A DNA stretch of 64,000 nucleotides, from the NCBI RefSeq assembly GCF_028023675.1, contig NZ_JAQIOZ010000010.1:62001-126000 (forward strand). Direction: 5' to 3'. The position numbers and the translations under genes are program-made. The DNA is from Primorskyibacter aestuariivivens (GTDB lineage Bacteria > Pseudomonadota > Alphaproteobacteria > Rhodobacterales > Rhodobacteraceae). The notes beneath the pieces were generated by a model. The model worked only from the letters and a program-made list of their open reading frames with translations. It was not told the DNA's origin and ran no database searches. This document shows, piece by piece, positions 39,425-59,254 of the stretch; within the stretch, counting starts at the first letter, position 1; each line of letters begins with the position of its first letter.

Positions 39425-40240
39425 TTAGTGCATCGTTGGCCTCTGGTCCAATGGAACGATGCTTTCCGGCGCAGGCGGGCGGTATCCCAGAGCGCTGTGC
39501 GGCCTGACGGTGTTGTAATGGATACGCCATTGTTCGATCAGGATTTGCGCCTCCCTTAGGCTGTAGAAGATTTCGCCGTTCAACAGCTCGTCTCGGAACC
39601 GGGCATTGAAGCTTTCGCAGTATCCGTTTTCCCATGGTGATCCTGGCTCGATGTACGCTGTTTTCGCCCCGACGGCGGCAATCCAGTCCCGCACCTTCTG
39701 AGCGATAAATTCCGGCCCATTGTCGGATCTTATGTATTCCGGGGGGCCGCGGAGGATGAACAGGTCTGTCAGTGCGTCCAGCACATCGGTTGAGTTGAGC
39801 TTGCGATCGACGCGGATCATGAGCGCCTCCCTGGTGTATTCGTCGATGATATTCAGCGTCCGATAGACGCGCCCGTCAGCAGTGCGGTCCTGAACGAAGT
39901 CATAAGACCAGACATGGTTTGGACGCTCTGGCCTGAGCCGGACGCATGACCCATCGTTCAGCCAGAGCCGCCCTTTCTTCTTCTGTTTCTGGGGGACTTT
40001 CAGCCCTTCGCGTCGCCAGATGCGTTCGACCCGCTTGTGGTTCACACACCAGCCCGCGTTGTTCAACAGACCCGTCACCATCCGATAGCCATAGCGGCCG
40101 TACTGGTCGGCCAACTCGATGATATCGTCGGTCAGCCGTTCTTCATCGGCGTGGCCCTGCGGCACCTTGCGCTGCGTGGATCGATGCTGTCCAAGCGTGC
40201 GGCAGGCGCGGCGCTCGGATACGCCAAGCTCCTGCCGCAC
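39425..40240 (-). CDS. IS3-family transposase OrfB (DDE integrase domain)
   Basis: A 271-residue frame with the HTH_21 region (RYGYRMVTGLLNNAGW) and the rve integrase core. Catalytic residues are visible as D in SYDFVQD, D in YIRSDNGPEF and E in SPWENGYCESFN (DD35E). The frame stays open upstream to about 40270, where it overlaps orfA. The natural product is therefore probably an OrfAB fusion made by -1 frameshifting near GGAAACTTCTG. Confidence 0.93.
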   Translation of the reverse strand: MRQELGVSERRACRTLGQHRSTQRKVPQGHADEERLTDDIIELADQYGRYGYRMVTGLLNNAGWCVNHKRVERIWRREGLKVPQKQKKKGRLWLNDGSCVRLRPERPNHVWSYDFVQDRTADGRVYRTLNIIDEYTREALMIRVDRKLNSTDVLDALTDLFILRGPPEYIRSDNGPEFIAQKVRDWIAAVGAKTAYIEPGSPWENGYCESFNARFRDELLNGEIFYSLREAQILIEQWRIHYNTVRPHSALGYRPPAPESIVPLDQRPTMH

Positions 40241-40272
40241 GTGGTCGATGCATTTGCGGCGACGCGAAGGGC

Positions 40273-40551
40273 TCAGAAGTTTCCCCGTGCCGCCTCGGTC
40301 AGAATGAGCTTGTCCAACGTCAGGTCCGACACCGCCCGCCGCAACCTTTGGTTCTCTTTCTCAAGCTCTTTCAGCCGAGCGAGTTGCGACCGCTGCATCC
40401 CGCCATAGAGCTTCCGCCATCGATAAAATGTCTGCTGCGTCACGCCGATCTGGCGCACCGCCTCGGCGATCGTCGCGCCTTGTCCCTGCAGAACTTCAAC
40501 TTGCCGAAGCTTCGATACAATATCTTCGGGCTTCTCTCGTTTTCCAGCCAT
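40273..40551 (-). CDS. IS3-family transposase OrfA
   Basis: A 92-residue protein with an N-terminal helix-turn-helix (EAVRQIGVTQQTFYRWRKLYG) and a C-terminal leucine-zipper-like coil (LARLKELEKENQRLRRAVSDL), as in IS3 OrfA proteins that bind the element's ends. It ends at EAARGNF, overlapping the open frame of orfB. Confidence 0.92.
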   Translation of the reverse strand: MAGKREKPEDIVSKLRQVEVLQGQGATIAEAVRQIGVTQQTFYRWRKLYGGMQRSQLARLKELEKENQRLRRAVSDLTLDKLILTEAARGNF

Positions 40552-40687: not shown

Positions 40688-40718
40688 TTGAACCTCCAGT
40701 TGCTAGAGGGCGTATGCA
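40688..40718 (+). promoter_or_regulatory. CadR/PbrR-type promoter of the first TRAP pair
   Basis: -35 TTGAAC (40688-40693) and -10 TATGCA (40713-40718) are 19 bp apart. The dyad CCTC-CAGTTGCTA-GAGG in the spacer matches the promoters at 42.8 and 49.3 kb closely. It lies just right of the IS end, 158 nt before the DctQ start. The rest of 40619-40875 holds no other gene I can support. Confidence 0.78.
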
Positions 40719-40875
40719 AGACACTTCAACGTGACTTTGAGAAAACATGATGCGGCTTGATGTCACTTACTAAAGGTGTGGTCACGCAAGGATGCTGTCC
40801 CATCGGACGAAGAATTCTGGTGCAAAGCGCAACGCAGTTCGCAGACGCAACGAGGGCCCGTGGGAGAAACAAGAA

Positions 40876-41385
40876 ATGATTGTAAGAATTGAGAGATTTC
40901 TACGCCTCGTTGGCATAGCCGCAGCCTGCATACTTATCCCCGCTCAGATACTTGTCTCATTGAGCTATCTGACCGGTCGCCGGATTATCCACTTTGGCAC
41001 GACACCACTGCAGGAACTTGAGTGGCACATCTTCCTGGCACTCATCTTTCTTTCGTTCGGCCCAGTTTACCTGGCCAATCGCCATGTTCGCATCGATGTA
41101 TTCAGGGAACGGTTTTCCGAGCGAACACGCGCTTATGTTGAACTCATCGGTATCTTCTTTGCCCTCATCCCATTCGCGCTGGCATTGACATATTTCGGTG
41201 CAAGCTTTGCCTGGAAGGCTTACCTAGTCGACGAAGGGTCCCGCGCAGCGCTTGGTCTGCCCAATCGTTGGATTATCAAATCGATGATACCAATAGGCGG
41301 GCTTTTAATGCTGCTGGCTGGGCTCGTCAAAGCAAAACAAAGCCTGTCAACTCTTCGCGGGACAGCGGTAGGGACGGGCGCATGA
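40876..41385 (+). CDS. TRAP transporter small membrane subunit (DctQ-like), pair 1
   Basis: A 169-residue protein with four membrane helices and the DctQ-family pattern: LQELEWHIFLALIFLSFG, then RHVRIDVFRERFSERTRAY. It partners the large DctM-like subunit, whose ATG overlaps its stop codon. No DctP-type binding protein gene is nearby. The ATG at 40876 is chosen because the upstream extension is charged and unlike the family. Confidence 0.9.
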   Translation: MIVRIERFLRLVGIAAACILIPAQILVSLSYLTGRRIIHFGTTPLQELEWHIFLALIFLSFGPVYLANRHVRIDVFRERFSERTRAYVELIGIFFALIPFALALTYFGASFAWKAYLVDEGSRAALGLPNRWIIKSMIPIGGLLMLLAGLVKAKQSLSTLRGTAVGTGA

Positions 41386-42719
41386 TCGAACTATTGCCTC
41401 TTTTCATGATCCTCTCGCTTGTTGTGTTTCTTTTTTCAGGCTACCCGGTAGCCTTGGTCCTGACCGGCGTGACAACGGTTTTTACGGCGCTCGCCATTGG
41501 GCTGGACCTCATGTCGGTCGCCAAGCTGCAGCTGTTTACCTTAAGGTCTTTTGCGTTACTGGCAGACAGCTTGATTTTTCCGGCTGTGGTACCCCTGATT
41601 TTGATGGGCGTGATACTTGCACGCAGCGGACAAATCGAGAGTTTTATGGGAACACTCTCGCATCTCTTGCGCCGAGTGCCAGGTAGTCTTCCAATAACAG
41701 TCCTAGTCGTCGGTATCTTGATTGCTCCCTCCGCCGGTCTGATTGGCGCTGCGGTCGGCACCCTCACGATTGCAACGCTCCCAACACTCTTGGCGCAGCG
41801 ATACAGCGCCTCCGTCGCGACAAGTGCCGTTGCAGCAGCCGGGACGCTTGGGGTGATCCTGCCGCCTGCGGTTATGCTGTTTTTCCTGGCTGATCTGGCG
41901 GAATTGCCAATCCTGGAGACCTTCACTGGAGTCCTGCTACCGGCAGGATTGTTGTTCGCACTCTATGTAGTGTATTTTGTCATCCGGGGTCGGTCCGCCC
42001 CCGCGGAAGTACAGATACCCCAACCGACGCGGCTGACACTTAAGTCCATGATCAGCATCTTGGGGCCTATTTTTGTTGTTGGCGCCGTACTAGCATCCAT
42101 CGCAACCGGGTGGGCAACGCCAACGCAATCGGGGGCCATCGGCGCGTTTGCCGCATTTTGCATGATGATATTGACGCGCCCGCTGACGTGGAATTTGTAC
42201 AAGAAAATTTGCGTCGAGACAGCGACAATCGTCGCCATGGTTTTCCTGATCATCCTTGCGGCCAATGCCTTCACACTGGTCTTCCGGATTTTGGACGGTG
42301 ATGAAATGGTCGAGGGTTTTCTATTTGCTCTCAATCTTGGAACTTGGGGGACACTGCTCTTCGTACTTGCCGTCGTATTTATCCTCGGTTTTTTCATCGA
42401 CTGGCTGGAGATTGTTGTGATATCACTCCCGCTTTTCATGCCAGTTCTCGTCGACTTGGACTTTTCTCAACACGTAGGTTCCCCGTTGATGATCAACGTC
42501 TGGTTGGCGACGTTGTTTGCATTGGTGCTTCAAACATCCTTCGTCACGCCCCCGTTCGGGTTTGCATTGTTTTTTCTGCGGGGATCCGCACCACCGGGTG
42601 TGTCAATGGCAGACATCTATAGAGGTGCAGTTCCAATTGTCGGATTGCAGCTCGTTGTATTGGCGTTGGTTCTCCTTTTCCCCTGGCTTGCTACCGCAAT
42701 CGCTTCTGGTCTGCGATAA
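41382..42719 (+). CDS. TRAP transporter large membrane subunit (DctM-like), pair 1
   Basis: A 445-residue protein with about twelve membrane helices and DctM signatures: APSAGLIGAAVGTL, GTLGVILPPAVMLFF and QTSFVTPPFGFALFFLRG. DctM is the ion-coupled transport subunit that normally takes substrates from a periplasmic binding protein. Here no binding protein is present, and the pair stands under a CadR/PbrR-type promoter, next to a ZntA-type ATPase. The substrate is unknown. Confidence 0.92.
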   Translation: MIELLPLFMILSLVVFLFSGYPVALVLTGVTTVFTALAIGLDLMSVAKLQLFTLRSFALLADSLIFPAVVPLILMGVILARSGQIESFMGTLSHLLRRVPGSLPITVLVVGILIAPSAGLIGAAVGTLTIATLPTLLAQRYSASVATSAVAAAGTLGVILPPAVMLFFLADLAELPILETFTGVLLPAGLLFALYVVYFVIRGRSAPAEVQIPQPTRLTLKSMISILGPIFVVGAVLASIATGWATPTQSGAIGAFAAFCMMILTRPLTWNLYKKICVETATIVAMVFLIILAANAFTLVFRILDGDEMVEGFLFALNLGTWGTLLFVLAVVFILGFFIDWLEIVVISLPLFMPVLVDLDFSQHVGSPLMINVWLATLFALVLQTSFVTPPFGFALFFLRGSAPPGVSMADIYRGAVPIVGLQLVVLALVLLFPWLATAIASGLR

Positions 42720-42838
42720 GCAGCAATTTAGAAGACCAAAGCGACTGAAGGTCAGGCCACATAGTGCAGGGGAAAGGAGGTGAGACTTACCCAAGGATAC
42801 AATAACACAATGAGTAGCGACAAACGTCGCGTTTTCCC

Positions 42839-42869
42839 TTGAACCTCTAGTTGCTGTAGGTCGTATGAA
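42839..42869 (+). promoter_or_regulatory. CadR/PbrR-type promoter of the ZntA-type ATPase
   Basis: -35 TTGAAC (42839-42844) and -10 TATGAA (42864-42869) flank the 19-bp spacer CTCTAGTTGCTGTAGGTCG. It sits 31 nt before the ATPase ATG. Confidence 0.82.
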
Positions 42870-42900
42870 CCCCCCACAGTTTCGAATCCGAGGATAATCC

Positions 42901-45243
42901 ATGCCACATGACGGTGCACAAAACAGTCAGGTCCATTCGCCTGCATCCGAGGACACCTGCGACAGCTGCGGCGGCGGAAAGGCCATTGAGCCAACGAAGG
43001 TACAAGCCTCGGATGGTCGCAGCTTCCATGTCAGCGGTCTGGATTGCGCCGAAGAGGTGTCCATCCTGAACCGGGTCGTCGGACCCGCGGTCGGTGGCAC
43101 GGAGTACCTCGCATTTGACGTCATCAATGCGCGAATGACAGTTCTGGATGGCGGAGAGAACCCGTCCTCAGACAAGATCATTGATGTTGTTGCAACTACC
43201 GGGATGACGGCCAAACCATGGGATGCCGAAGACGCCAGCGCAGATCAGGCCGCACATCTGAAGAAACAAAAACTGTTCACTATGCTCAGTGGCGGCTTCT
43301 GGGCTGCGGGTTTTCTGTACCACATCGTCGAAACAGGATTTGAAGGCGCAATCGGTTTGTTCTCCGGTCATGGCGAAGCGCCGATGCCCATGGCTGAAGC
43401 AGGACTGTTCGCGATAGCTATCCTTTTTGGCGTCTGGCTGGTCGCACCCAAAGCATGGTCGTCGGCGCGCCGGCTCTCTCCTGACATGAATCTGATAATG
43501 GTGGTGGCTGTGGCTGGTGCCATCGGGCTTGGCGAGTTTTTCGAGGCCGCAACGGTAGCCTTCTTCTTTTCGCTCTCGCTGTATCTTGAAAGCTGGAGTG
43601 TCGGGCGGGCGCGCAATGCTGTCTCCGCGCTGCTCGACCTTGCACCTCCAACAGTCCGGGTGCTCGATGATGATGGTTCGGAAGCCGACGTTCCCGCTGC
43701 GGCGGTGGCTGTTGGCGCACGGTTCGTCGTACGTGGCGGGGATCGTATTCCTCTCGATGGAGAAGTTGTCGACGGGGCAGGGGCCGTCGATCAGGCGCCC
43801 ATCACGGGCGAGAGCGCACTGGTGCCGAAAGAAGCAGGCGATGATGTCTACGCAGGCACGATCAATGGCGAGGGCACTCTGACCGTGCGGGCTACCAAGC
43901 TTGCCACTGACACGGTGTTGTCCAAGATTATCCGCATGGTAGGCGATGCCCATTCGCGCCGTGCCGAGGTCGAACAATGGGTAACAAAGTTTGCCCGCAT
44001 CTACACACCGGTTGTGATGGTGCTCGCCATGCTTATTGCCTTTGTCCCCCCGCTTGTCGCGGGCGGTGACTGGGGCTTCTGGTTCTACAACGCGCTGGTT
44101 CTGCTGGTCATCGCCTGCCCGTGCGCCCTGGTGATCTCCACGCCGGTCTCTATCGTCGCCTCCCTTGCCGCCTCGGCGCGCAACGGCGTGCTGATCAAGG
44201 GCGGGGCCTATGTCGAAGCGCCCGGTCGCACCACTGCACTGGCCATGGACAAGACCGGCACGATCACGATGGGGGAACCTGAGGTTGCGGCCATATACCC
44301 GCTCGGCGGAACAACCGAGCGCGATCTGATGGCACGGGCCGTTGCCCTCGAGGCGCGCTCGTCGCATCCGCTCGCACGAGCCATCCTGGGCCGGGCGGAA
44401 CAGGATGGGATGCAAGTCGTCGCCGCCGAAGATACCCGTACAGTGCCTGGACGCGGTCTTGAGGGCGAGCTTGATGGCCAATTGATCTGGTTGGGTTCGG
44501 ACCGGTTTGCCGAGGAAAAGGGCCTTGGCGGGGACATCCCGACAGACCTGCGCGATCGGATCGAAGGGGCGGGGAGCACGCTGGTTGCCATAGGCGATGC
44601 CAATGGAGTGAGCGGTGTGCTGGAACTGCGCGACCGGATCCGGCCCGATGCCAAGGGGATCGTTGCTCGTCTGCATGCGCAGGGGGTCAAGAAGATCGTG
44701 ATGCTTACCGGCGACAACGCGGCAACAGCAAGGGCGGTTGCCGCTGAAGTGGGGATCGACGAGGTGCGCGCCGAACTCCTGCCCGAGGACAAGGTCACCG
44801 CCATTGAGGAACTGGTGACACAGTACGGAACTGTCGCGATGATCGGGGATGGTGTGAATGATGCGCCGGCGATGGCACGCGCGCATTACGGCATCGCTAT
44901 GGGAGCCGTGGGATCGGACGCCGCAATTGAAACGGCCGATATCGCGCTGATGACAGACGACATTGGCAAAGTGCCATGGCTGATCGGGCATTCCCGCCGA
45001 ACCATGGCAATTATCAAGCAGAACATCGGGCTGTCTCTTGCGACCAAGGCCGCATTCGTGGTGGCAACAGCCTTCGGCATGGCCTCGATGTGGGGCGCGA
45101 TCGCGGCCGATGTTGGCGTTTCCCTTCTCGTTGTCGCCAACGCCTTGCGGTTGCTGCGCGCGCGCGACAACGACGATGAACCGCGTGGTGGCGATGAGGT
45201 TGGCGAAGAAATGGCAAAGGCGGCACTGGCGCACGGTCACTAG
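42901..45243 (+). CDS. zntA: ZntA/CadA-type Zn/Cd/Pb-exporting P1B ATPase
   Basis: A 780-residue P1B-2 ATPase. The N-terminus has a CDSCGGG cluster (20-26) and an HMA-like domain with GLDCAEE (about 46-52), the acidic version typical of divalent soft-metal pumps. VIACPCALVISTP (ion site), DKTGTIT (phosphorylation) and GDGVNDAPAMA follow. It ends with a His-containing tail (ALAHGH). It exports Zn(II), Cd(II) or Pb(II). It is monocistronic under a CadR/PbrR-type promoter. Confidence 0.95.
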   Translation: MPHDGAQNSQVHSPASEDTCDSCGGGKAIEPTKVQASDGRSFHVSGLDCAEEVSILNRVVGPAVGGTEYLAFDVINARMTVLDGGENPSSDKIIDVVATTGMTAKPWDAEDASADQAAHLKKQKLFTMLSGGFWAAGFLYHIVETGFEGAIGLFSGHGEAPMPMAEAGLFAIAILFGVWLVAPKAWSSARRLSPDMNLIMVVAVAGAIGLGEFFEAATVAFFFSLSLYLESWSVGRARNAVSALLDLAPPTVRVLDDDGSEADVPAAAVAVGARFVVRGGDRIPLDGEVVDGAGAVDQAPITGESALVPKEAGDDVYAGTINGEGTLTVRATKLATDTVLSKIIRMVGDAHSRRAEVEQWVTKFARIYTPVVMVLAMLIAFVPPLVAGGDWGFWFYNALVLLVIACPCALVISTPVSIVASLAASARNGVLIKGGAYVEAPGRTTALAMDKTGTITMGEPEVAAIYPLGGTTERDLMARAVALEARSSHPLARAILGRAEQDGMQVVAAEDTRTVPGRGLEGELDGQLIWLGSDRFAEEKGLGGDIPTDLRDRIEGAGSTLVAIGDANGVSGVLELRDRIRPDAKGIVARLHAQGVKKIVMLTGDNAATARAVAAEVGIDEVRAELLPEDKVTAIEELVTQYGTVAMIGDGVNDAPAMARAHYGIAMGAVGSDAAIETADIALMTDDIGKVPWLIGHSRRTMAIIKQNIGLSLATKAAFVVATAFGMASMWGAIAADVGVSLLVVANALRLLRARDNDDEPRGGDEVGEEMAKAALAHGH

Positions 45244-45422
45244 CAATGTGACTGGCAAGAACCAGTGGGAGCAGGCGGTTTGCAACTGTTAGATTGGATT
45301 GAACGTTGGGTGCAGACTATTGCCCCTCGGTCAATGGTGCCCTGACCGACCAAAGCGGCAAATGGTCCCGCCGTAGCTAGAGTTCGGTCTGTCTGGAACT
45401 ACCGACCTTATCGTACCCTGAA

Positions 45423-45467
45423 CCGGCAAGGGCAAAAAAACCGCCAAATCCTCAAGGGTTTTGCCGG
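45423..45467. terminator. Possible terminator hairpin between zntA and the cmtR-like gene
   Basis: CCGGCAA (45423-45429) pairs with TTGCCGG (45461-45467), with A- and T-rich runs on either side (GGCAAAAAAA and GGGTTTTGCC). The 31-nt loop makes it weak. The remaining 45244-45535 shows no gene. Confidence 0.35.
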
Positions 45468-45535
45468 GGTTTTGTCCAGACTAAGCAATTGACCTGGCAT
45501 GGGGTGGGTTAGGGCAGAGCAGCAAAAAAGGTCGC

Positions 45536-45886
45536 TTATGTCCCGCGATAATTGTCACAAGCATCAACACCTTCTGCGACCACATCGAGAAGGACGTCCA
45601 CATCATTCAAAAGAGCTGTAATGCGCGGGCTGCTGATACGGTAGCGGATGAAACGTCCGTCGCGGTCGCTGGCGACAAGCCCACAATCCAGAAGACACCT
45701 GAGATGGTTGGAGACGTTTGGCTGCAATAACTTCGTGCAAGTCACAATCTCATGAACGGCCAACGGCGCTTCGCGCAAGGCGTCGAGAATCGCGAGGCGG
45801 CTTGGGTCCGCAAAACCGCGAAACAGCTTCGCTCTTCTCTCAATAGCGGTTGTCCCACTATTGCAGCAGGCGACAATTTGATCCAT
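45536..45886 (-). CDS. CmtR-like ArsR/SmtB-family metal-responsive repressor
   Basis: A 116-residue winged-helix protein (ATG at 45884-45886; a GTG at 45898 is also possible). The recognition helix QPNVSNHLRCLLDCGLV holds two cysteines spaced as in CmtR, and a third lies near the C-terminus (VDACDNY). Those three positions are the Cd(II)/Pb(II) ligands of CmtR. An extra CC pair is at residues 7-8. It is divergent from the HMA-CDF gene and probably represses it. Confidence 0.88.
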   Translation of the reverse strand: MDQIVACCNSGTTAIERRAKLFRGFADPSRLAILDALREAPLAVHEIVTCTKLLQPNVSNHLRCLLDCGLVASDRDGRFIRYRISSPRITALLNDVDVLLDVVAEGVDACDNYRGT

Positions 45887-45904
45887 ATCACTACTCACTG
45901 ATAT
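45885..45904. promoter_or_regulatory. Likely CmtR/ArsR-family operator
   Basis: ATATCA (45885-45890) and TGATAT (45899-45904) form an inverted repeat with an 8-nt spacer, overlapping the start of the repressor gene and upstream of the HMA-CDF gene. A site of this size and place is usual for ArsR-family autoregulation. Confidence 0.5.
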
Positions 45905-45942
45905 ATTATTTCTTTTCCCACTTTAGCAGGAGAACTGCGATC

Positions 45943-46791
45943 ATGGCCAACGCAGAAAGCGCGATAGCAGATATCCCATCCTTCCGTTACCGCGTTTCCG
46001 GTATGGATTGCGCCAAGGATGCCGCCCAGATCGAGCGGGCGGCGCAATCTGCAGGTATCGCGCCTGACGCCGTGAAAGTGTCTACTGCAACGCACATAAT
46101 GACTTTGACAGCTCCCGAAGCGCGCTTGCCGGAAATTGAAAAAGCCGTCGAGACAACAGGGTATGGGTTTGACCGCATCGAGAGCGACGAAGATATTCAG
46201 CAAGGTGCGGCCCATCAGGACCCTGGCTATCGCCGCGCGCTCTGGATCGTTGTGATCCTGAATGTTGGTTATGGCGTTCTTGAAATGATCGGCGGGTTCA
46301 TTGCCGGGTCACAGGCCGTGAAGGCCGACGCGTTGGATTTCATTGGCGACGGCGCAATCACCTTCCTCGGCCTGTTGGCCATCGGCTGGAGCCTCGCTTG
46401 GCGAGCGCGGTCGGCCCTGATCCAGGGCATCTTCCTCGGCCTGCTTGGTCTTGGAGTCTTTGGCACGACCATCATAAGGGCATTCGAGCCGACAACCCCA
46501 GACGCCACTTTGATGGGGATTCTGGGCCTGATTGCTCTTGTGATAAATGTCATCTCCGTGCTGCCGTTGCTGCGGTACCGCAAGGGCGACGCGAACATGC
46601 GCGCTGTCTGGCTGTTCTCGCGCAACGACGCCATCGGCAACGCCGCAGTCGTTATCGCCGCCGGGCTGGTGGTTTGGCTAGGCAGCGCATGGCCCGATCT
46701 CATCGTAGCCTTCGGGATCGCCGGACTGTTCCTGCACTCGTCATGGGCGATCATCCGCGACGCGCGGGCCGATCTGAAGGCGGTGGCATGA
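45943..46791 (+). CDS. CDF cation transporter with an N-terminal HMA domain
   Basis: A 282-residue protein. Residues 12-75 form a heavy-metal-associated domain with GMDCAKDAAQIERAA, similar to the acidic HMA of ZntA-type pumps. Six membrane helices follow. Helix 2 carries ADALDFIGDG (DxxxD) and helix 5 has SRNDAIGN, where only the aspartate of HxxxD is kept. The C-terminal cytosolic domain of CDF proteins is missing, perhaps replaced by the HMA domain. An AGGAGA site precedes the ATG. It opens an operon with lspA and TRAP pair 2. Confidence 0.9.
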   Translation: MANAESAIADIPSFRYRVSGMDCAKDAAQIERAAQSAGIAPDAVKVSTATHIMTLTAPEARLPEIEKAVETTGYGFDRIESDEDIQQGAAHQDPGYRRALWIVVILNVGYGVLEMIGGFIAGSQAVKADALDFIGDGAITFLGLLAIGWSLAWRARSALIQGIFLGLLGLGVFGTTIIRAFEPTTPDATLMGILGLIALVINVISVLPLLRYRKGDANMRAVWLFSRNDAIGNAAVVIAAGLVVWLGSAWPDLIVAFGIAGLFLHSSWAIIRDARADLKAVA

Positions 46792-47297
46792 ACAGCCGCG
46801 TTCTCGGTGGGCTTTGCGCCATCGCCGCGTTTGGTGTTGATCAGGGCACCAAGGCTCTTGCCCTGAACTCCCCGGCGCTTGAGAACGGGGTCGAGGTTCT
46901 GCCCTTTCTCAACCTCGTGCGGGTTTTGAACGATGGGGTCAGCTTCGGTATGCTCGGCGGGGTCGTACCCTGGTGGGGTCTGGTCGCACTTGCTGCCGTG
47001 GTCGTGGCATGGCTGCTGATCTGGCTGTGGAAGGCTCCGGACAGGCTGACAGGTGCGGCGCTCGGTCTGATCATCGGAGGCGCGCTTGGCAATATCCTTG
47101 ACCGTCTGCGCTATCAGGCCGTCCCTGACTTTCTCGACTTCCATTACGGGTCATACCACTGGCCGTCCTTCAACTTGGCTGACGTGGCGATCTTTTGTGG
47201 GGCAGCATTGCTGTTCTGGGACAGCTTTCGCACCTCGAAAGTCAGGCCGGAAAATCGGGAACAAGACAATCGCAAGGGAGATGTCACGGGGGGATAA
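46788..47297 (+). CDS. lspA: Signal peptidase II (LspA/PbrC-like)
   Basis: A 169-residue protein with four membrane helices and the two catalytic aspartates in GNILDRLRY and FNLADVAIF. The FGVDQGTKAL segment of LspA is also present. LspA trims the signal of prolipoproteins. Copies in metal operons correspond to PbrC of lead resistance. It overlaps the CDF gene (ATGA) and precedes TRAP pair 2 by 37 nt. The C-terminal 20 residues are charged and extend beyond the usual end. Confidence 0.92.
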   Translation: MNSRVLGGLCAIAAFGVDQGTKALALNSPALENGVEVLPFLNLVRVLNDGVSFGMLGGVVPWWGLVALAAVVVAWLLIWLWKAPDRLTGAALGLIIGGALGNILDRLRYQAVPDFLDFHYGSYHWPSFNLADVAIFCGAALLFWDSFRTSKVRPENREQDNRKGDVTGG

Positions 47298-47334
47298 CAG
47301 CTAACAGGCAAAGAACTTTGGGAGGGAATTCGGC

Positions 47335-47856
47335 TTGAGATTTTTGGATTGGATTGACCGTGGCATTCGCGGCATCGGCGTCGTGACTGCGTGGCTGACA
47401 GTTGTTTCGATTGCTGCTTATGGCGCGCTTCAGATGCTGGATCGCAAGCTACAACTTGGCGTGTCGAGCTATTTGCCGGACCTGTCCACGTCACTGCTGT
47501 TCATCCTAATTTTCTTGACCTTTGGGTATACCTATCTACGCGACGGTCACGTGCGCGTTGATGTTCTTCGCAGACATTGGTCCGCGCGCCGCATTGCGTG
47601 GATCGAACTGATTGGCGGCCTTTTTGTCCTTCTGCCGCTCGCCGCCATCCTGACCTACTACGGATGGGACGGTTTGATGCGCACCACGAAATTCGCGGAA
47701 ACCCAGTTGTGGGCACAACGCATTGCCGGGGTCATCGGCCCCATCCTGCTGGCTCTTGCCGGGATGATCGTAGCCCTGCGCAACGTCGCCTTTCTGACAG
47801 GGAGACGTGCGCAAGGTGCACCGGAACAAGCAAGCGGCCTGCACAATGGTGAATGA
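47335..47856 (+). CDS. TRAP transporter small membrane subunit (DctQ-like), pair 2
   Basis: A 173-residue protein with four membrane helices and DctQ features: LPDLSTSLLFILIFLTFGYTY, then GHVRVDVLRRHWSARR. The start is a TTG with a strong GGGAGGG ribosome site 7 nt before it. It overlaps the DctM-like gene by 11 nt. It shares its overall form with the pair-1 subunit at 40.9 kb. Confidence 0.88.
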   Translation: MRFLDWIDRGIRGIGVVTAWLTVVSIAAYGALQMLDRKLQLGVSSYLPDLSTSLLFILIFLTFGYTYLRDGHVRVDVLRRHWSARRIAWIELIGGLFVLLPLAAILTYYGWDGLMRTTKFAETQLWAQRIAGVIGPILLALAGMIVALRNVAFLTGRRAQGAPEQASGLHNGE

Positions 47857-49219
47857 GGTCCTCACGATCGCCATGCTTGTCGTGATGGCCATCGGGGTCT
47901 TCAGCGGCTTTCCGGTGGCTCTGGTGCTCGCGGGGACAGGCTTCTTGGGGTTTGTCGCTGCGGTCTGGGTCGGTATCACTGATTTTCAGCATTTGGGGCT
48001 GATCTACCTGCGAGCCCGTGGTGTATTGACCAATGAATCAGTCCAATTCACCAGCGTTCCAATGCTAATATTTCTCGGACTGATCCTGAATGCCAGCGGG
48101 GTTGCAGAAACCATGTTTCGCCTGCTGGGGCGTCTTCTGACAGGCGTTCCCGGTCGCTACGCCATTGCGACTTTGCTGATCGGTCTCGTCCTCGCTCCAG
48201 CCGCCGGGGTGATCGGTGCTTCCGTCATAACTGTGGCATTGGTGGCTTATGCTCCGATGATGGCGTCGGGCTACGCACCGCGAACAGCGGGAGGTGCTGT
48301 TGCGGCCTCTGGTGCACTGGGTGTAGTGTTCCCGCCTGCCGTGATGCTGTTCTTCATCTCGAACGTGTTCTATCTGCGCATCGGATTGATGTATGTGGCC
48401 CTCATCGTGCCTGTGCTTCTGATGGTCATGGCCTTCGCGATCTATTTTGCCGTCACCTTGAGAAAAACGGTCGAAATCCCGCTGGACACACCCAAGACCA
48501 ATCTTGTGTCAGACCTCTTGTTCGTCCTCGCGTCTGTCGCGGTCATCGCATCCATTCCGCTCAGCATCATTCTGGGCTTTGCGACACTCACAGAGGCGGC
48601 TGGAGTAGGGGTTTTTGGCGCGCTATTGGTCGCGCTGGCGCGAAAGCGCTTGTCTTTCTCATCGTTGAACTCTGTCACGGTGCAGACAAGCACGATGACG
48701 TCGATGGTCTTCTTCATCGTATTGGGCGCATCGGTATTCTCGCTCAGTTTCCACCTGGTCGGTGGACCGGACGTCATCTTCGAGTGGATATCCGCATTCG
48801 ATCTCACCCGGTGGGAACTGTTGGCGATCCTCCTTGGCGTGATCATCATACTTGGGTTTGTTTTTGACTGGATCGAGGTGCTGCTGGTCTTTGTACCCGT
48901 ACTGATGCCGATTATTTCAGAGCTCGACTTCGCAGATCACGTCGGCTCTGCCTACTTTGCGCAGATCTGGATCGCTGGCCTGATTGCGTTGGCCTTGCAA
49001 ACGTCCTTCCTGACGCCTCCTTTCGGCTATGCCCTGTTTTTTGCTAAGATGGCGGCACCGAAGGGTATCAACCTATCCGATATCTATCGCGGAGCGGTAC
49101 CTCTTGTTGCCATTGAGATTGTATTGATCGTGGCGCTGATCTCGTTTCCTCAGCTTATCACTTGGCTGCCTGAGATGGCCCTTGGGACCGCAGATATGCC
49201 GCAGCTGATACAGCGGTGA
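47846..49219 (+). CDS. TRAP transporter large membrane subunit (DctM-like), pair 2
   Basis: A 457-residue protein with about twelve helices. DctM signatures seen are APAAGVIGASVITVAL, GALGVVFPPAVMLFF and LQTSFLTPPFGYALFF. As with pair 1, no binding protein gene is found. It ends an operon that begins with the HMA-CDF transporter under a CmtR-like repressor, which again links a TRAP pair to Cd/Zn/Pb genes. Confidence 0.92.
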   Translation: MVNEVLTIAMLVVMAIGVFSGFPVALVLAGTGFLGFVAAVWVGITDFQHLGLIYLRARGVLTNESVQFTSVPMLIFLGLILNASGVAETMFRLLGRLLTGVPGRYAIATLLIGLVLAPAAGVIGASVITVALVAYAPMMASGYAPRTAGGAVAASGALGVVFPPAVMLFFISNVFYLRIGLMYVALIVPVLLMVMAFAIYFAVTLRKTVEIPLDTPKTNLVSDLLFVLASVAVIASIPLSIILGFATLTEAAGVGVFGALLVALARKRLSFSSLNSVTVQTSTMTSMVFFIVLGASVFSLSFHLVGGPDVIFEWISAFDLTRWELLAILLGVIIILGFVFDWIEVLLVFVPVLMPIISELDFADHVGSAYFAQIWIAGLIALALQTSFLTPPFGYALFFAKMAAPKGINLSDIYRGAVPLVAIEIVLIVALISFPQLITWLPEMALGTADMPQLIQR

Positions 49220-49276: not shown

Positions 49277-49307
49277 TTGAACCTCTAGTTGCTAGAGGTT
49301 GTAGCAT
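49277..49307 (+). promoter_or_regulatory. CadR/PbrR-type promoter of the divergent CDF gene
   Basis: -35 TTGAAC (49277-49282) and -10 TAGCAT (49302-49307) are 19 bp apart. The dyad CCTCTAG-TTG-CTAGAGG is perfect, the cleanest copy in the window. About 195 nt of leader without a clear gene follow to the ATG at 49504. Confidence 0.82.
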
Positions 49308-49503: not shown

Positions 49504-50418
49504 ATGAAGAGCGATAAGCAAATCGAAGTGTTCGCGGGCGTCGCCAGTTGTCAGAGGCAAGCGCGATGGAACAAGTGGTTGTACTTGCCGATTGCCTTGG
49601 CGTTGTCTGTCGGCAGCCTTTTTTCTGGAAGCCTTGCCCTTATTGCCATCGCATTGCTCTACGCTTCGGACGTGGTCGAGTTGTTGATGAGTTCAGCGGC
49701 GACTAGGCTGACACGACGTCAGAAAGAGGACCGCGTTGTTCTAGGATATGGGCGATTGGAAATTGCGACAGAGTTGGCGAATTGTGTTGCTGTGGTACTG
49801 CTATCCGCTTCGGTCATTTACCACGGCGTTATGCGCCTAAATTCCCCTCATCTGGCGCAAGGCTGGATCATAGTGGTGCTCGTCTCTGTCTTGATAGGGA
49901 TTGAGTTACTGGTGTTCTCGAAACCGGCACCAACATCGTGGCGCCGACGTAAAATCGGCACGTCACCGCCGCTATGGTCAGACCGTTTAGCGTTCTTGCT
50001 ACCAGTTCTCGCTGGCGGCGTAGCTATTTTGTTGCTTGGTTCCGGGCGAACTGACACGATTATTGCAGTTTTATTGTCCGGCGCGCTTCTTTGGTTCGCC
50101 CTCCGCGGTATTGGGGAGGCGCTTAGATCGTCGCTGCTTGGAGCGCCATCAAACCTGGATGCGGCAGATGTTGTGCAACAAATAATTTCCGTAGAAGGGG
50201 TGCAAGATATTCATCATCTACACTTCTGGCGGCTCCCGGAACAGAGACTGGCCATCGACGCTCATGTCGTTGTCACAGTACCGAATTGGCCTAAAGCCGA
50301 AGCCATCAGGGATCACATCGAAGCAATTCTAATCCATAAGTTCGGAGTAGAACACAGCACCCTCGAGATGGAAACGCCGGACAGGGAGCTGGATTCTTGC
50401 CATGTTTACGGCACTTGA
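49504..50418 (+). CDS. CDF-family protein with reduced metal sites
   Basis: A 304-residue protein with six predicted helices and a recognisable CDF C-terminal domain (VQDIHHLHFWRLPEQRLAIDAHV). The helix-2 and helix-5 motifs read LLYASDVVELL and PLWSDRLAFLL. The aspartates remain but both histidines of HxxxD are gone, and the histidine-rich loop is replaced by a basic segment (WRRRKIG). It may move another ion or act as a partner subunit. A GTG ten codons upstream is an alternative start. Confidence 0.85.
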   Translation: MKSDKQIEVFAGVASCQRQARWNKWLYLPIALALSVGSLFSGSLALIAIALLYASDVVELLMSSAATRLTRRQKEDRVVLGYGRLEIATELANCVAVVLLSASVIYHGVMRLNSPHLAQGWIIVVLVSVLIGIELLVFSKPAPTSWRRRKIGTSPPLWSDRLAFLLPVLAGGVAILLLGSGRTDTIIAVLLSGALLWFALRGIGEALRSSLLGAPSNLDAADVVQQIISVEGVQDIHHLHFWRLPEQRLAIDAHVVVTVPNWPKAEAIRDHIEAILIHKFGVEHSTLEMETPDRELDSCHVYGT

Positions 50419-50548: not shown

Positions 50549-51058
50549 ATGATTGACAGACTTCCGAGACGCTTCTTTCTCTTGGGTGGCGTGGCGGCCT
50601 TTCTCTCGGGATGCGCCAGCAAGTTTTGCACTTACAATGGGCCAGAGGTGACGCGCGTGCGCCTCTACAAGTCGCAAAGACTGCTGGTGCTTGATGGCAC
50701 GGAGGGCGTTTTGCGCACCTATCCGGTTGGCTTGGGGTTCGCGCCGGAAGGACACAAGCAATTCGAGGGCGATGGACGCACGCCTGAAGGTGCGTACACC
50801 ATCGACCGCCGCAATCCGGACAGCCTGTTTCATCTGTCTGTCGGAATTTCCTATCCGAACGAGGAGGACATCGCCTTTGCTGAAGCGCAGGGCAAATCTC
50901 CTGGCGGTGATATCTTCATCCATGGCGGTCCCCGAAAGGGCATCGACCCGATGAACAAGCGGGACTGGACGGCTGGATGCATCTCGGTCACCGATCGGCA
51001 GGTCGAAGATGTCTATGCAATGGTGCGCGATGGGACACCTATCGAGATTTATGCCTAG
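50549..51058 (+). CDS. L,D-transpeptidase, lipoprotein type (third of three)
   Basis: A 169-residue protein with a lipobox (LSGCAS, Cys near 22) and a YkuD/YafK-like domain: GRTPEGAYTIDRRNPDS, FIHGGPRKG and WTAGCISVTDRQ with the nucleophile Cys near 146. It belongs to a different subgroup from the other two L,D-transpeptidases, closer to YafK/DpaA-type enzymes. It stands alone and converges on the ABC transporter operon. Confidence 0.92.
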   Translation: MIDRLPRRFFLLGGVAAFLSGCASKFCTYNGPEVTRVRLYKSQRLLVLDGTEGVLRTYPVGLGFAPEGHKQFEGDGRTPEGAYTIDRRNPDSLFHLSVGISYPNEEDIAFAEAQGKSPGGDIFIHGGPRKGIDPMNKRDWTAGCISVTDRQVEDVYAMVRDGTPIEIYA

Positions 51059-51090: not shown

Positions 51091-51849
51091 TCAGGCAAAT
51101 CGGCGGCGCAGCGCAACATTGATCCCTTCAATGGCGATCACCATGATGACCACTGCAATCGTCACGCTCGCCGCCTTATCGTATTGGAACGAGCGCACAT
51201 AGGTCTGAATGTAGAACCCGATCCCGCCAGCCCCGACGATGCCAAGGATCAGCGACTCTCGCAGGTTCAACTCGAACCGAAAGATCGTGTCGCGGGCCAC
51301 GACCGGGGCCATTTGCGGCCAGATCGCATAGCGCAAACGCAACAATGGCCCGGCTCCGGCACTCTCCAAAGCGGCAATCGGAGCACGGGACACGCCATCA
51401 ATCGCTTCGGCGTAGAATTTGGCCAGCATGCCTGTCGCGTGGAACGCCACCGCGATGATGCCGGGCAAGGGCCCCAGCCCAACCGCGCCCACCATCAACA
51501 TCGCCACCAGGATCAGCGGGATCGCGCGGATAAATGCCAGAACGGTGCGGACAGGTCGGTGCACCGCTGCGGACACCATCGTCTCCGAGGCGAGAATGCC
51601 AAGCGGAACGGAAAAGAACACGGCACCGAGAGTGCCGAGGATCGCGATCCGCAGCGTCTCGGCGCTCCCCTTCCAGATCTCGTCCATAATGGTCGGATCC
51701 GGCGGGAACATGCGTCCAAAGAAATCCGCAATGCGAGGGCCTGCAGACAGTAGTCGGGACAGTTCGACATCGGTGGTGATCAGCGACCACAGCAACACTC
51801 CGGCAACGAACAGCCCAGCCCAGAACCCGCCCAGATCGCGCGACCGCAT
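51091..51849 (-). CDS. PhnE-like ABC transporter permease
   Basis: A 252-residue protein with six helices and the PhnE coupling region ESAGAGPLLRLRYAIWPQM followed by NLRESLILGIVGAGGIG. It forms the membrane channel of a PhnDCE-type importer. Its ATG shares one base with the ATPase stop. Regulation by the adjacent MntR points to a metal-related substrate rather than phosphonate, which is inference. Confidence 0.9.
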   Translation of the reverse strand: MRSRDLGGFWAGLFVAGVLLWSLITTDVELSRLLSAGPRIADFFGRMFPPDPTIMDEIWKGSAETLRIAILGTLGAVFFSVPLGILASETMVSAAVHRPVRTVLAFIRAIPLILVAMLMVGAVGLGPLPGIIAVAFHATGMLAKFYAEAIDGVSRAPIAALESAGAGPLLRLRYAIWPQMAPVVARDTIFRFELNLRESLILGIVGAGGIGFYIQTYVRSFQYDKAASVTIAVVIMVIAIEGINVALRRRFA

Positions 51850-52634
51850 CAGCTTACGACCTTGAGCCGTGCGCCGGATGCCGGGTCTGTATCATCATAG
51901 AGCGCCGCCGTCGCGTCATCCGTCAAATCGCGCGTCGCGACATCAAAGACGATCCGACCGTTGCGCATTCCGATGATACGGTCGGCAAAACGCCGTGCCA
52001 GTTCCGGTTGATGCGACGAGAACACAGTCGTCGCCCCGCGTGCCTGGGCGGCGCTGGTGAGAAGCGTCAGGATGTCCGCTGCTCTGGACGGATCAAGGTT
52101 GCTGACCGGCTCGTCCGCGAAGATCAGCTTAGGCTCTTGTGCGAGACAACGGGCAATTGCCACCCGCTGCCGCTGGCCGCCGCTGAGCGAGTCCACGCGC
52201 CGGTCTGCGAGGTCCGCGATGCCGCAGTCGGAGAGTGTCGATCGGGCTATGTCCATGTCAGACTTCGACACATTGCCGAGCAGTGCGCGCCAACCGGGCA
52301 TCCGGCCCAGCCTACCGTTCAACACGTTGCGCATCACTGTCGATCGTTCGACAAGCGCAAACTCCTGAAAGATGAACCCGGTATCAGCGCGCTTTGCCAA
52401 GGGCAGGGCGCGGGTGGGTTCGAATGGCGTGCCAAGGACTGAGACCCGCCCCTGCCAATCGCGCAGCCGTCCGTCCAGCAACGTCAAAAGTGTGGTCTTT
52501 CCGGCTCCGGAAGGACCAAGAAGGGCAACGCACTCTCCGGCCGCAATGTTCAGGGATACCTGATCGATGGCGCGCTGCTCAGCACTGTGATGGCCAAAGC
52601 TCAGATCGTCGATGTGAATGGCGTTTTGCATCAT
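51849..52634 (-). CDS. PhnC-like ABC transporter ATP-binding protein
   Basis: A 261-residue ATPase with Walker [10 protein letters not shown], signature [13 protein letters not shown], Walker B LIFADEP and the H-loop SSHQPE. The order and size match PhnC. It overlaps the binding-protein gene by 4 nt and the permease gene by 1 nt, so the three are co-translated. Confidence 0.92.
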
Positions 52635-53506
52635 AGCAATCCGAAGCGCTGCGCCATGGTCCGCACACCGTCGAACACCGAAGGGTCGGCTTCGACATAG
52701 CCATCCGGGCCGTAGAGATAGCGGAGTTTGTCACGGTGCTCGGGCGTATTGAGCTTCATCATGGCAGCAATGAAGTTCTCGCGAAGCTCGGCGTCCAGTT
52801 CGGGACGTGCGATGACGACGTGGCTTGGAATGGCATCGCTTTCCGCGATCCACGTAACCTGCGATTGCTGCTCGGGGGTGAGAAGAAGGTCGGCGTATTG
52901 GCTTGCCCCAGCGGCATCAACCAGGCCTTCCGCCATCGCCTGCATCGCCTGTTGGTAGCCACCGGCAAAGAAAATGCGGCCAAAGAAATCCTCTGCCGCA
53001 TCCGGGCTGGATACCAGGCCTGCGCGCTCGAACTCGGCCAAGGGGTACATGTATCCCGATTCCGAAATCGGGTCGGCAAAGGCGATGTCGCGACCTTCCA
53101 GATCGGCCAGCGTCTTGAAGCCGCTGTCACGGCGCACAAAGACGCGGCCCGTATAACTGGGCGCATCGCGGTAGACCTCTGACAAGAGCGGCACTGCACC
53201 GATTTCTCTTTCAGCCAGAACGAAGGGCAGGGCACCCATGAACGAGATATCGGCATCGCCATTGCGCAACGCCTCGACGGCCGCCGCATGGTCAATGGTC
53301 ACGAACCCCTCGACCGGCATTCCGATTTCAGACGACAGCCAGGCGGTGATCGCCTCGATATCGCCCAGAAGCTTGTCGGGGTTCTCCTGCGGTATAAAGG
53401 CCAGGCGCAACGGGCCAGACTGCGCCAGAGCAGGCATCGGCTGCGAGACAAGACCGGCCGCTGCGAGAATAAGAAGGTGACGGCGGTTCAAGCGAGGCAT
53501 CATCAA
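52631..53506 (-). CDS. PhnD-like periplasmic substrate-binding protein
   Basis: A 291-residue protein with a signal peptide (RRHLLILAAAGLV, to about ALAQ-29) and the PhnD fold marks LRLAFIPQENPDKL, NGDADISFMGALPF and FADPISESGYMYP. PhnD-family proteins bind oxyanions such as phosphonates and phosphite, and some uncharacterised members are metal-linked. It overlaps the di-haem gene by 4 nt. Confidence 0.9.
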   Translation of the reverse strand: MMMPRLNRRHLLILAAAGLVSQPMPALAQSGPLRLAFIPQENPDKLLGDIEAITAWLSSEIGMPVEGFVTIDHAAAVEALRNGDADISFMGALPFVLAEREIGAVPLLSEVYRDAPSYTGRVFVRRDSGFKTLADLEGRDIAFADPISESGYMYPLAEFERAGLVSSPDAAEDFFGRIFFAGGYQQAMQAMAEGLVDAAGASQYADLLLTPEQQSQVTWIAESDAIPSHVVIARPELDAELRENFIAAMMKLNTPEHRDKLRYLYGPDGYVEADPSVFDGVRTMAQRFGLL

Positions 53507-55395
53507 AACGCCTTTCCTTCAATGGCGGCGGCATCCGACTTGAACAGACTCCAACTCGCTTCCGCGGCCGCCCAGTCCTCTGCCCGAACGGCTGCGCCGA
53601 CCTCTGCCAAGCGCTCGGCCAGTGCGTAGACCTCGGGCCGCAACGAAAGATTGGCCATCGTGCCTGTATCGGCCGCAAGATCGGCCGCAACCGTGTCGGT
53701 CAGGACCAGGATGTGCTGCGCATCGCGTTTCGGTAGAAGCGTGCCGAGCGTCGAGGCAAAAGTGGTGAGCTCCGCGAAGGCCAGACGGAAAGGCGTATTT
53801 GCGGCATTGAAAGCCTCGTATGGCTCATCAGCTGCGCCGACCGTGTCCAGATAGGCGGTCAGGTCCGACCGCTCGGCACCGGTCAGGCCAAGGTTCTTTG
53901 TCTCGTCGAACCAATCCACAACGCTTGCCAGCGTCGGCAGGGAGCCGTCGTGGAAATACGGCGCTGTGTAGAGCGTACCGAGCAAGGTGGGCGTGTCGAG
54001 GGCGCCCGCATGTGACCCTTCGTAAGCCACCGCCACCGACCCGATGTCATGGGATTTGCGATCAAGAAAGTTGCCGGACGGCGTATGGCAGCTGGCACAG
54101 GATTGGTTGCCCATCCCTGCAAAGGGGCGGTTGAATACCTCTTCGCCACGCCGCGCAGCATCCGGCGCGGCCTCCGTCAATTGGCCGTCGCCGGTGACCA
54201 GGGAATTGGGCAGGAAATCGAACTCGGTCATGTAGGCCACCAGTGCGTCCAGCATGAAGGGTGTAGGTTCTTCGCCCGCGAATTCGTTGACGATCACATT
54301 GCGGGAGAAATCCCGAAGCGACGCGAAACGTCCGTCTCGCCCGTAAGGTCCGGTAAACCGCAGCCCGCGCAGGCTTGGGATATCGATCGGGTCGTCGCGG
54401 CGATCGTTGAACATCGGGTTGAAGAAAGCGCCATCAACGTCGACCGCGCCGGGCTGGTGACTGGCGCCGGGAATGAAAAACCGCTGATTGATGTCCGAGC
54501 GATTGTGGCAGGTCGAACAGGCAATACCCAGATCGCGGGCCGGGCCGCCGAAGATCTCGGCACTGTCGAACAACATGTCGCCGTAGGCGATGAGCGGAAG
54601 GTCCGTTTCGTCGATCCCTTGTTCTTCGAAATTGAGCACGAGAAGTGGCAGGGGGTCCTGATCGAAGATGTCTGAGCCGGGGGGCAGAGCGGCGGGCAAT
54701 TCAACCGGCTGTCCGGTTCGGGCAATCGCCTCGGGCACGGCAGTCAGCGTCTGGCGCGGGGCAGGATCCGCGACGAGGTAATTTTCGGCCAGATAGGCTG
54801 AAATTTCCGCGCGTGCAGCAGTCATTTCCTCAACGTCCCTATCCATGGTTCCGGCGCCGAGCACGCCTGCTGAGCCTGTGGCATTGTTGAGTTCCAACCA
54901 CGCCCGACCCAGTGTCCGGGCCGCACTAGGGTCCGCGGCTTTGATATGATCGGCAAACGCGCGGTAAAGCTCCTTGGCAGTAGCCACTGCCTGTTGCGAT
55001 ACCGCCGGGTTGTCGGCAGCAATGGCTGCATCCAGCTCTTCTTCGATTCTCAGCGCGATAAGGCGGGTGGCTGCCACATGAACGGCATGCCGATCCTGCC
55101 TGCCAATCGCGTCGGACAGATCACCGACATCAATGGCGCTTTCTCGGTCCAGCCAGTCAAGGGCTCCGAGACGATACTCCGATCCGCGATAGGGCTCGGT
55201 CCAGGCTTGTTCCACTTTGTCCCACGGGACCGGCGCGAGATTGCCCAGAAACAGCGTCAACCGATAGGCTGCCGCTTCGGGCAGCCAAGGGGCTTCCTTG
55301 GCGGGTGTAGCCGAAGAGGGACCAGCCAACACCGAAGCGGTGACAATCGCGTAGAGGATCACGCGCAGGACGTGATGGATCACAGGCGGCTCCAT
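53503..55395 (-). CDS. Large di-haem cytochrome c peroxidase-like (MauG/CCP family) protein
   Basis: A 630-residue exported protein (signal to about SSAT-30). Residues 30-240 are a helical region of unknown type. A CCP/MauG-like domain follows, with haem sites CSTCH (293-297) and CASCH (433-437) plus PGASHQPGAVDVDG and TAPYFHDGSL. The C-terminal 130 residues are again helical. Ordinary CCPs have about 330-350 residues, so both flanks are extra. It is the first gene of the PhnDCE operon. The MntR-type palindrome lies only 6 nt before its ATG, over the usual ribosome-site position. Confidence 0.88.
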   Translation of the reverse strand: MEPPVIHHVLRVILYAIVTASVLAGPSSATPAKEAPWLPEAAAYRLTLFLGNLAPVPWDKVEQAWTEPYRGSEYRLGALDWLDRESAIDVGDLSDAIGRQDRHAVHVAATRLIALRIEEELDAAIAADNPAVSQQAVATAKELYRAFADHIKAADPSAARTLGRAWLELNNATGSAGVLGAGTMDRDVEEMTAARAEISAYLAENYLVADPAPRQTLTAVPEAIARTGQPVELPAALPPGSDIFDQDPLPLLVLNFEEQGIDETDLPLIAYGDMLFDSAEIFGGPARDLGIACSTCHNRSDINQRFFIPGASHQPGAVDVDGAFFNPMFNDRRDDPIDIPSLRGLRFTGPYGRDGRFASLRDFSRNVIVNEFAGEEPTPFMLDALVAYMTEFDFLPNSLVTGDGQLTEAAPDAARRGEEVFNRPFAGMGNQSCASCHTPSGNFLDRKSHDIGSVAVAYEGSHAGALDTPTLLGTLYTAPYFHDGSLPTLASVVDWFDETKNLGLTGAERSDLTAYLDTVGAADEPYEAFNAANTPFRLAFAELTTFASTLGTLLPKRDAQHILVLTDTVAADLAADTGTMANLSLRPEVYALAERLAEVGAAVRAEDWAAAEASWSLFKSDAAAIEGKAF

Positions 55396-55400
55396 TCAAA

Positions 55401-55420
55401 AAGTTAGACGCGTCTAACTT
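55401..55420. promoter_or_regulatory. Perfect 20-bp palindrome, likely MntR operator
   Basis: AAGTTAGACGCGTCTAACTT is a perfect palindrome. It lies between the divergent di-haem/PhnDCE operon and the mntR-like gene, 56 nt from the latter's ATG and 6 nt from the former's. DtxR/MntR proteins bind palindromes of this size as dimers. Confidence 0.78.
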
Positions 55421-55475
55421 ATCTACCCAAAGCCAACTTGTTGTCAATCCATCAACCATCGGGCAAAGTCGTCAT

Positions 55476-59216: not shown

Positions 59217-59254
59217 TGGTAGAATTGCGCCTGACTCCGCCCATTTTTTGAGCC

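Follow-up and report, generated by a model that had tools for sequence, protein, structure and literature searches.

Two TRAP QM pairs without a binding-protein gene in a zinc/cadmium/lead resistance island of Primorskyibacter aestuariivivens

Tripartite ATP-independent periplasmic (TRAP) transporters are described as importers that accept substrate only from a periplasmic binding protein, which also makes export unfavourable (passages of PMC9971032). Considered here are two pairs of TRAP membrane subunits, each a small DctQ and a large DctM, that lie among metal-resistance genes of Primorskyibacter aestuariivivens (genome of 4.29 Mb in 44 contigs). The window, the whole stretch of 64,000 nucleotides that was analysed, is part of the 169-kb contig C10 (NZ_JAQIOZ010000010.1). 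Within it the first pair, QM1, occupies 40876-42719, and the second, QM2, occupies 47335-49219 as the last genes of a CDF-lspA-Q-M operon, where CDF denotes a cation diffusion facilitator. The features of the island are as follows.

40688-40718, + strand: MerR-type promoter/operator of QM1 (TTGAAC, 19-bp spacer with palindrome, TATGCA)
40876-41385 (open frame from 40792), + strand: DctQ1, small TRAP membrane subunit (PF04290, 68.3 bits, over cut-off)
41382-42719, + strand: DctM1, large TRAP membrane subunit, in the clade without binding protein (PF06808, 158.9 bits; tree)
42839-42869, + strand: MerR-type promoter/operator of zntA (site pattern and operator model)
42901-45243, + strand: ZntA-type Zn/Cd/Pb P-type ATPase (TIGR01525, 576.6 bits, over cut-off)
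45536-45898, - strand, divergent: ArsR/SmtB metalloregulator, CmtR-like (NF033788, 79.5 bits, cut-off 55)
45943-46791, + strand: CDF metal exporter, heavy-metal-associated (HMA) domain marginal (PF01545, 68.7 bits; PF00403, 24.7 bits, cut-off 24.8)
46788-47297, + strand: LspA, signal peptidase II, PbrC/CadC-like by context (TIGR00077, 111.2 bits, cut-off 73.95)
47335-47856, + strand: DctQ2, second periplasmic loop shortened (PF04290, 45.4 bits, over cut-off)
47849-49219, + strand: DctM2, in the clade without binding protein, mobile with metal islands (PF06808, 158.1 bits)
49277-49307, + strand: MerR-type promoter/operator of the second CDF gene, perfect palindrome
49504-50418 (start from an annotated relative in L001), + strand: second CDF metal exporter (TIGR01297, 113.2 bits, cut-off 82.35)
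59249-59284, - strand: fourth, looser operator, facing an SCO1-type gene at 58620-59204 (operator model)
59401-59829, + strand: MerR-family metal regulator, candidate activator of the operators (CueR, ZntR and CadR-PbrR scores)

All four Q and M proteins score above the Pfam cut-offs, and the ZntA, CDF and LspA identities are confirmed by family models (TIGR01525, PF01545, TIGR00077), as a first-pass annotation of this DNA had proposed. The same annotation named a CmtR-type repressor, of which the ArsR/SmtB assignment stands; CmtR as a firm name was rejected at 59.3 bits against a curated cut-off of 150, and CmtR-like is the limit. Its HMA-CDF protein is likewise a CDF exporter, with an HMA part just under threshold. 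Since the window elsewhere encodes CusF-like, PCuAC, SCO1, Dsb and L,D-transpeptidase proteins, the region is an island of metal and envelope-stress genes. Two frames at 39425-40551 (minus strand), immediately before the QM1 promoter, resemble an IS3-type transposase by eye, and plasmid NZ_CP085159 matches the window from zntA onward, not across QM1. Accordingly, QM1 may be a separate acquisition.

The claim that no DctP-type gene accompanies either pair holds for the whole of contig C10. DctP (PF03480) is found at 17 places in the genome, none of them on C10, which encodes a single TAXI-type binding protein some 95 kb from QM1 and directly before a DctM of its own. DctM matches fall at 25 places in the genome, several being pieces of one gene. 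Two further DctM genes that lack PF03480 (one is likewise on C10) directly follow TAXI binding proteins, and among the 18 remaining fetched DctM stretches DctP lies beside DctM in 16; the other two are a stretch of C5 with a TAXI-like frame at its edge and a stretch of C35 at the contig end. Because nearly all other DctM genes of the genome adjoin DctP or TAXI, QM1 and QM2 are exceptions at home. The DctP profile found no match in the 64 clade loci (window included) versus 23 of 23 long ordinary loci, and a TAXI profile built from two sequences also found none in the 64. When complete QM2-carrying plasmids were searched over their whole length, DctP was absent from 8 of 13. The pairs are TRAP by their DctM and DctQ subunits, not by a dedicated periplasmic binding protein, for which the locus and contig searches yielded no candidate. 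In two plasmids, a DUF411 protein is encoded directly between lspA or the CDF gene and DctQ (L218:4779-5246 and L219:4862-5239), which raises the question whether a small periplasmic metal binder could serve as a stand-in. Separately, five loci (L186, L187, L188, L189 and L196) contain ordinary-pocket pairs of two other families without a nearby DctP; in L188 and L189 one DctP lies about 7 kb off, adjoining another DctM.

The phylogeny of DctM, inferred with IQ-TREE from 66 rows, unites DctM1, the DctM2 group and distant relatives as one clade of 18 rows (support 100/100), nested among DctP-bearing TRAPs. DctP and pocket residues were compared between these 18 rows and 43 comparison rows, and DctP was found in the locus of none of the former and 39 of the latter. 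Both pairs thus belong to one clade without neighbouring DctP, and this check, which the first-pass annotation had proposed, did not refute its reading. Because IQ-TREE warned of long branches, the inference was repeated on sets from which groups had been removed; on its own, each of DctM1, the DctM2 group and the G712 pair joined the same short-branched core with an SH-aLRT support of 100, and long-branch attraction was rejected as the cause of the clade. The branching order within it is unsure. Nearest in the tree are DctP-bearing relatives of FcbT3/mannitol type by annotation, with 36-44% identity to DctM1. Unlike the clade, the relatives of this DctP-bearing branch (DctP in 39 of 43 loci) have an ordinary pocket, and none of 27 lies beside metal genes.

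The whole M chain aligns to the solved TRAP QM structures of isethionate DctMQ (9pym) and sialic acid SiaQM (7qha, 7qe5, 8thi, 8y4w), with a best E of 6.6e-34 using the clade profile. As in the solved transporters, the Q and M subunits remain paired and the twin prolines, the Na2 sodium site and the pocket acid are kept; unlike them, the clade is without a binding-protein gene, is altered at the tip of hairpin 1 (HP1) and in transmembrane helix 5 (TM5), and is associated with metal-type promoters. In PpSiaM numbering, with site assignments taken from passages of PMC9971032 and PMC11801797, the replacements seen in all 18 clade rows are A to P at position 104 in the HP1 tip/TM5 region (0 of 43 relatives), S to A or G at 151 (0 of 43), V or I to F at 155 (none of the comparison rows) and Y to F at 378 (2 of 43), joined by T to A at 106 in 15 of 18 (0 of 43). 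At positions 106, 151, 183, 272, 334 and 378, most of the clade rows or all of them have lost a hydroxyl residue. Every one of the 18 retains the two twin prolines, the Na2 residues at 325, 366 and 369 and the acid at 329. Close to Na1, positions 104 and 106 of the HP1 loop are altered, but as this site uses backbone atoms the sequence says little about whether it is lost. Four comparison rows without a nearby DctP retain the ordinary residues at 104, 106 and 151, and thus a missing DctP neighbour does not of itself bring the pocket change. The second periplasmic loop of Q, a predicted contact with the binding protein (passages of PMC9971032), is shortened in 11 of 18 clade rows; that of Q1 is not.

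Close relatives of QM2 travel with metal genes. DctM matches occur in 546 plasmid records, 13 of which exceed 60% identity to DctM2 (68.6-98.9%); the best plasmid matches listed below that value are near 37%. All 13 neighbourhoods hold metal genes in the order CDF-lspA-Q-M or zntA-Q-M; in CP069018 the arrangement is CDF-DUF411-Q-M without lspA, and two Roseovarius plasmids carry an ordinary Q-M-DctP set 4-6 kb beyond QM2. Species genomes contributed 42 QM2 loci spanning 27 named genera, namely 39 from Rhodobacterales, one titled Maritalea mobilis (Hyphomicrobiales) and two from order-less alphaproteobacterial metagenome-assembled genomes; flanks extend over 21.2 kb in 29 of the 42, the others being cut by contig ends. 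LspA occurs in 37 of these loci, a CDF-HMA match in 33, ArsR in 30 and ZntA in 21, some of the CDF-HMA and LspA matches, at 35-51% identity, being different members of those families; 40 loci have one or more of the four markers, and none has DctP. The two marker-free loci are L135, a 6.6-kb contig with MerR only, and L142, with none. This last locus (L082/L142, from Rhodobacterales bacterium HKCCE3408) holds a 65% DctM2 relative without metal markers or DctP, and the frames preceding it resemble, by eye, a SulP-type transporter and a universal stress protein. Of the 390 genomes searched from the order, 15 (own genome included) contain a clade member with 65% identity or more, and three further matches at E 1e-80 share 38-40%. 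DctM2 is under purifying selection, with a dN/dS of 0.03-0.14 in five of seven comparisons, the other two being saturated.

QM1 is more isolated. No relative of DctM1 above 42% identity occurs among 295 genomes of the family, nor any above 40.4% among the plasmid matches listed; a DNA search with the QM1 module returned a single 68-base piece in a single record, and viral contigs yielded no relative of A1 or DctM1. Among 385 genomes of the class, the seven best DctM1 places share 43-49% identity (E 1.3e-101 or better), all without DctP. Metal genes accompany several of these: G712 has two clade places with zntA, lspA and ArsR; G781 has MerR, lspA and CDF, with its close kin G1305 beside lspA; and G692 has MerR, with zntA 6.5 kb away. 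The member in G941 adjoins TrkH and no metal marker genes, and those in G870 and G778 (L166 and L168) adjoin alanine dehydrogenase and glyoxalase genes, with neither metal genes nor DctP. In the next 12 fetched DctM1-like places, DctP lies within 1.5 kb in seven (one 44% identical) and not in five. Widening by order gave a match in the one genome searched from the order of G712 and in three of the nine searched from that of G781; one of these, G1304 (45% to the query), has DctP in its locus and lies outside the clade. In a draw of 398 genomes across the phylum, seven matched at E 1e-140; these seven belong to the same class, and no member was found outside Alphaproteobacteria. The arrangement varies by lineage, as zntA-Q-M, CDF-lspA-Q-M, ArsR-Q-M-zntA-lspA or MerR-Q-M-lspA. 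As a separate observation, G692 has another DctQ and a frame of 903 residues that includes DctM (L171:11403-15202) just before a ZntA gene with 77% identity to that of the window; this pair has no DctP in its locus, lies outside the clade and has an ordinary pocket, and it is a possible independent second link between TRAP and ZntA.

When ZntA, LspA, CDF, ArsR or MerR was sought within 5.5 kb, markers were found at five of eight distant clade loci, none of 27 DctP-bearing loci and none of five ordinary DctP-less loci. The comparison of 5/8 with 0/27 gives about 2e-4 by hand, with the eight loci representing only five lineages (three with markers, two without). Relatives are thus enriched near metal genes, both in the 40 of 42 QM2 loci and among the distant members. 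The proposal of a metal-linked, binding-protein-free class survives as one DctP-less clade that is mostly metal-linked, the link not being universal (G941, G870, G778, L142).

QM1, zntA and the second CDF gene share a promoter type. The element TTGAACCTCTAGTTGCTAGAGG, with three mismatches or fewer allowed, occurs at three places in the window versus 0.00 expected, namely 40688 (QM1), 42839 (zntA) and 49277 (CDF), and across the 4.29-Mb genome a pattern of 14 fixed bases without mismatch finds only those three places; the reversed pattern, used as a control, finds none. A palindrome inside a 19- or 20-bp promoter spacer is a mark of MerR-family metal promoters (passages of PMC1526738), and each of the three sites has its palindrome in a 19-bp spacer. 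The site at 59284 (minus strand), adjoining the MerR gene at 59401, departs from the 14-fixed-base pattern. This regulator scores 117.3 bits for CueR, 117.2 for ZntR-type and 107.9 for CadR-PbrR, every one below cut-off, and CadR/PbrR was rejected as a firm name. Of the CadR/PbrR-type promoter that had been placed before QM1, then, the MerR-type anatomy and the pattern common to zntA and CDF stand, and the name does not. An operator model located 97 sites, many of them near-copies, in 63 related loci (mononucleotide shuffles gave 0.8 per pass): 29 before ZntA, 6 before CDF2, 3 directly before Q (G781, G692 and G1305, with 4, 2 and 3 mismatches) and 59 before non-marker genes. MerR-type sites recur before zntA-Q-M operons. 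The model found no site in 32 ordinary loci (487,383 bases), nor in G941, G870, G778 and L169.

Some of this setting is already known. In the pbr/cad operons of Cupriavidus, an LspA-type PbrC/CadC accompanies a Zn/Cd/Pb ATPase and CDF, and the promoters are of MerR type with 19-bp spacers (passages of PMC1526738, PMC11580412, PMC3668242), all of which are shared with the island; the word TRAP is absent from those papers. A survey of mostly open-access literature, including passages of PMC4224046 and PMC6308992, found no description of a TRAP or DctM linked to metal resistance or of a TRAP free of a binding protein.

Taken together, QM1 and QM2 very probably represent a TRAP subfamily that lost its periplasmic binding protein and was mostly recruited into Zn/Cd/Pb detoxification. 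By promoter and operon anatomy, QM1 would probably be turned on by a MerR-type activator along with zntA and the CDF gene, and QM2 controlled by the divergent ArsR-type repressor along with the CDF pump and LspA. It seems likely, though by no means sure, that each pair acts as a stand-alone ion-coupled elevator whose substrate or coupling differs from those of carboxylate-importing TRAPs, because hydroxyls were lost and a proline gained at the tip of HP1 and on the TM5 face of the pocket while Na2 and the acid were kept. On balance, the best overall reading is of a binding-protein-free QM subfamily working alone in Zn/Cd/Pb detoxification and perhaps exporting an anion.

Several observations weigh against this account. 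Polar residues are gained at 90, 115 and 352, Q is replaced by E at 401 in 11 of 18 rows, and no Cys, His or Asp gain exceeds the threshold in the clade, leaving no mark of a metal site in the pocket. Most clade rows retain the residues at which SiaQM docks its binding protein (an acid at 50 in 15 of 18, E237 in 16 of 18), and 5 of the 13 QM2 plasmids do encode DctP elsewhere. L142 and three of the eight distant loci (G941, G870 and G778) hold none of the marker metal genes. DctM1 has no relative above 49% and sits on a long branch, and its Q loop is ordinary. Finally, the clade profile A2 was built from clade members, and its score gap is therefore partly built in.

As to direction, the ion transporter superfamily includes ArsB, CitMHS and VcINDY, carriers that work without a binding protein and are not known to have a Q subunit; ArsB is an exporter of a toxic anion and CitM a carrier of metal-citrate. 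DctM is placed in that superfamily (passages of PMC5812351); Pfam and NCBIfam name only DctM families for DctM1 and DctM2, which by sequence are not members of ArsB/CitMHS. It is conceivable, at less than even chance, that the pairs move a small anion outward or carry out a metal-anion complex. The anion would reach the periplasm, where ZntA and CDF deliver metal, and loss of the binding protein would lift what is thought to restrict TRAPs to import. Outward transport is suggested because relatives such as ArsB export and because the partners of the pairs put metal in the periplasm; the reported disfavouring of export by the binding protein is a further reason (passages of PMC9971032). The corresponding evolutionary proposal is similarly tentative: a TRAP-derived exporter subfamily of Alphaproteobacteria, in which loss of the binding protein would have turned a strictly importing elevator to metal-induced efflux of an anion or metal-anion complex beside ZntA, CDF and LspA.

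The pairs might instead import. A metal-inducible QM could take up a small molecule required during metal stress, such as a metal ligand, a thiol precursor or a carbon source, without a binding protein, like DASS-type carriers, in keeping with the importing ancestry of TRAPs (passages of PMC9971032), the retention of Na2 and the pocket acid in every clade row, and the alanine dehydrogenase and glyoxalase genes beside G870 and G778. This appears rather unlikely, as pocket hydroxyls were lost and the recurrent partners ZntA, CDF and LspA are not uptake genes, no common catabolic gene being seen. An ordinary TRAP supplied in trans by the host is improbable. Such supply would suit the plasmids that encode DctP elsewhere, the 17 DctP places of the home genome (one without DctM on its contig), the docking acids and the ordinary-pocket comparison rows (4 of 43) that also lack a nearby DctP; yet 8 of 13 complete plasmids are without DctP, the pocket is altered in all 18 clade rows and in none of those four, 11 of these rows have a shortened Q loop, and QM2 is spread across 27 named genera. 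Still less probable is a cation carrier, whether the QM exports Zn/Cd itself or is a Na+/H+ antiporter feeding CDF exchange: the position beside ZntA and CDF, the changes near Na1 at 104 and 106 and the adjoining TrkH would fit, whereas Na2 is unaltered, and direct metal carriage in particular is disfavoured because no Cys, His or Asp was gained. That the pairs are chance passengers without a role in metal stress, on islands that are indeed mobile and gene-rich and with some clade members away from metal genes, is very unlikely given the differing metal-gene arrangements in different lineages, the MerR-type sites directly before Q, the purifying selection on DctM2 and the absence of ordinary relatives (0 of 27) from such neighbourhoods.

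A binding-protein-free subfamily in Zn/Cd/Pb detoxification may thus add an unrecognised component to the resistance islands of marine bacteria and may point to a new job for the TRAP family. A branch without a binding protein, with defined pocket changes and a metal setting, is also a natural experiment on the import direction, coupling and specificity that a binding protein imposes.

Two further features of the island lie outside the pairs. Downstream, 51091-55937 encodes a phosphonate-type ABC transporter (PhnD/C/E), a di-haem peroxidase-like protein and an MntR/DtxR-type regulator, and PhnC/D/E with the peroxidase recur in 12 of the 42 QM2 loci. Extra copies of envelope enzymes are also present, namely two L,D-transpeptidases (33294-33965 and 50549-51058) and LspA (46788-47297), with Lnt in relatives L001, L004 and L005; these copies are perhaps back-ups for metal-sensitive enzymes.

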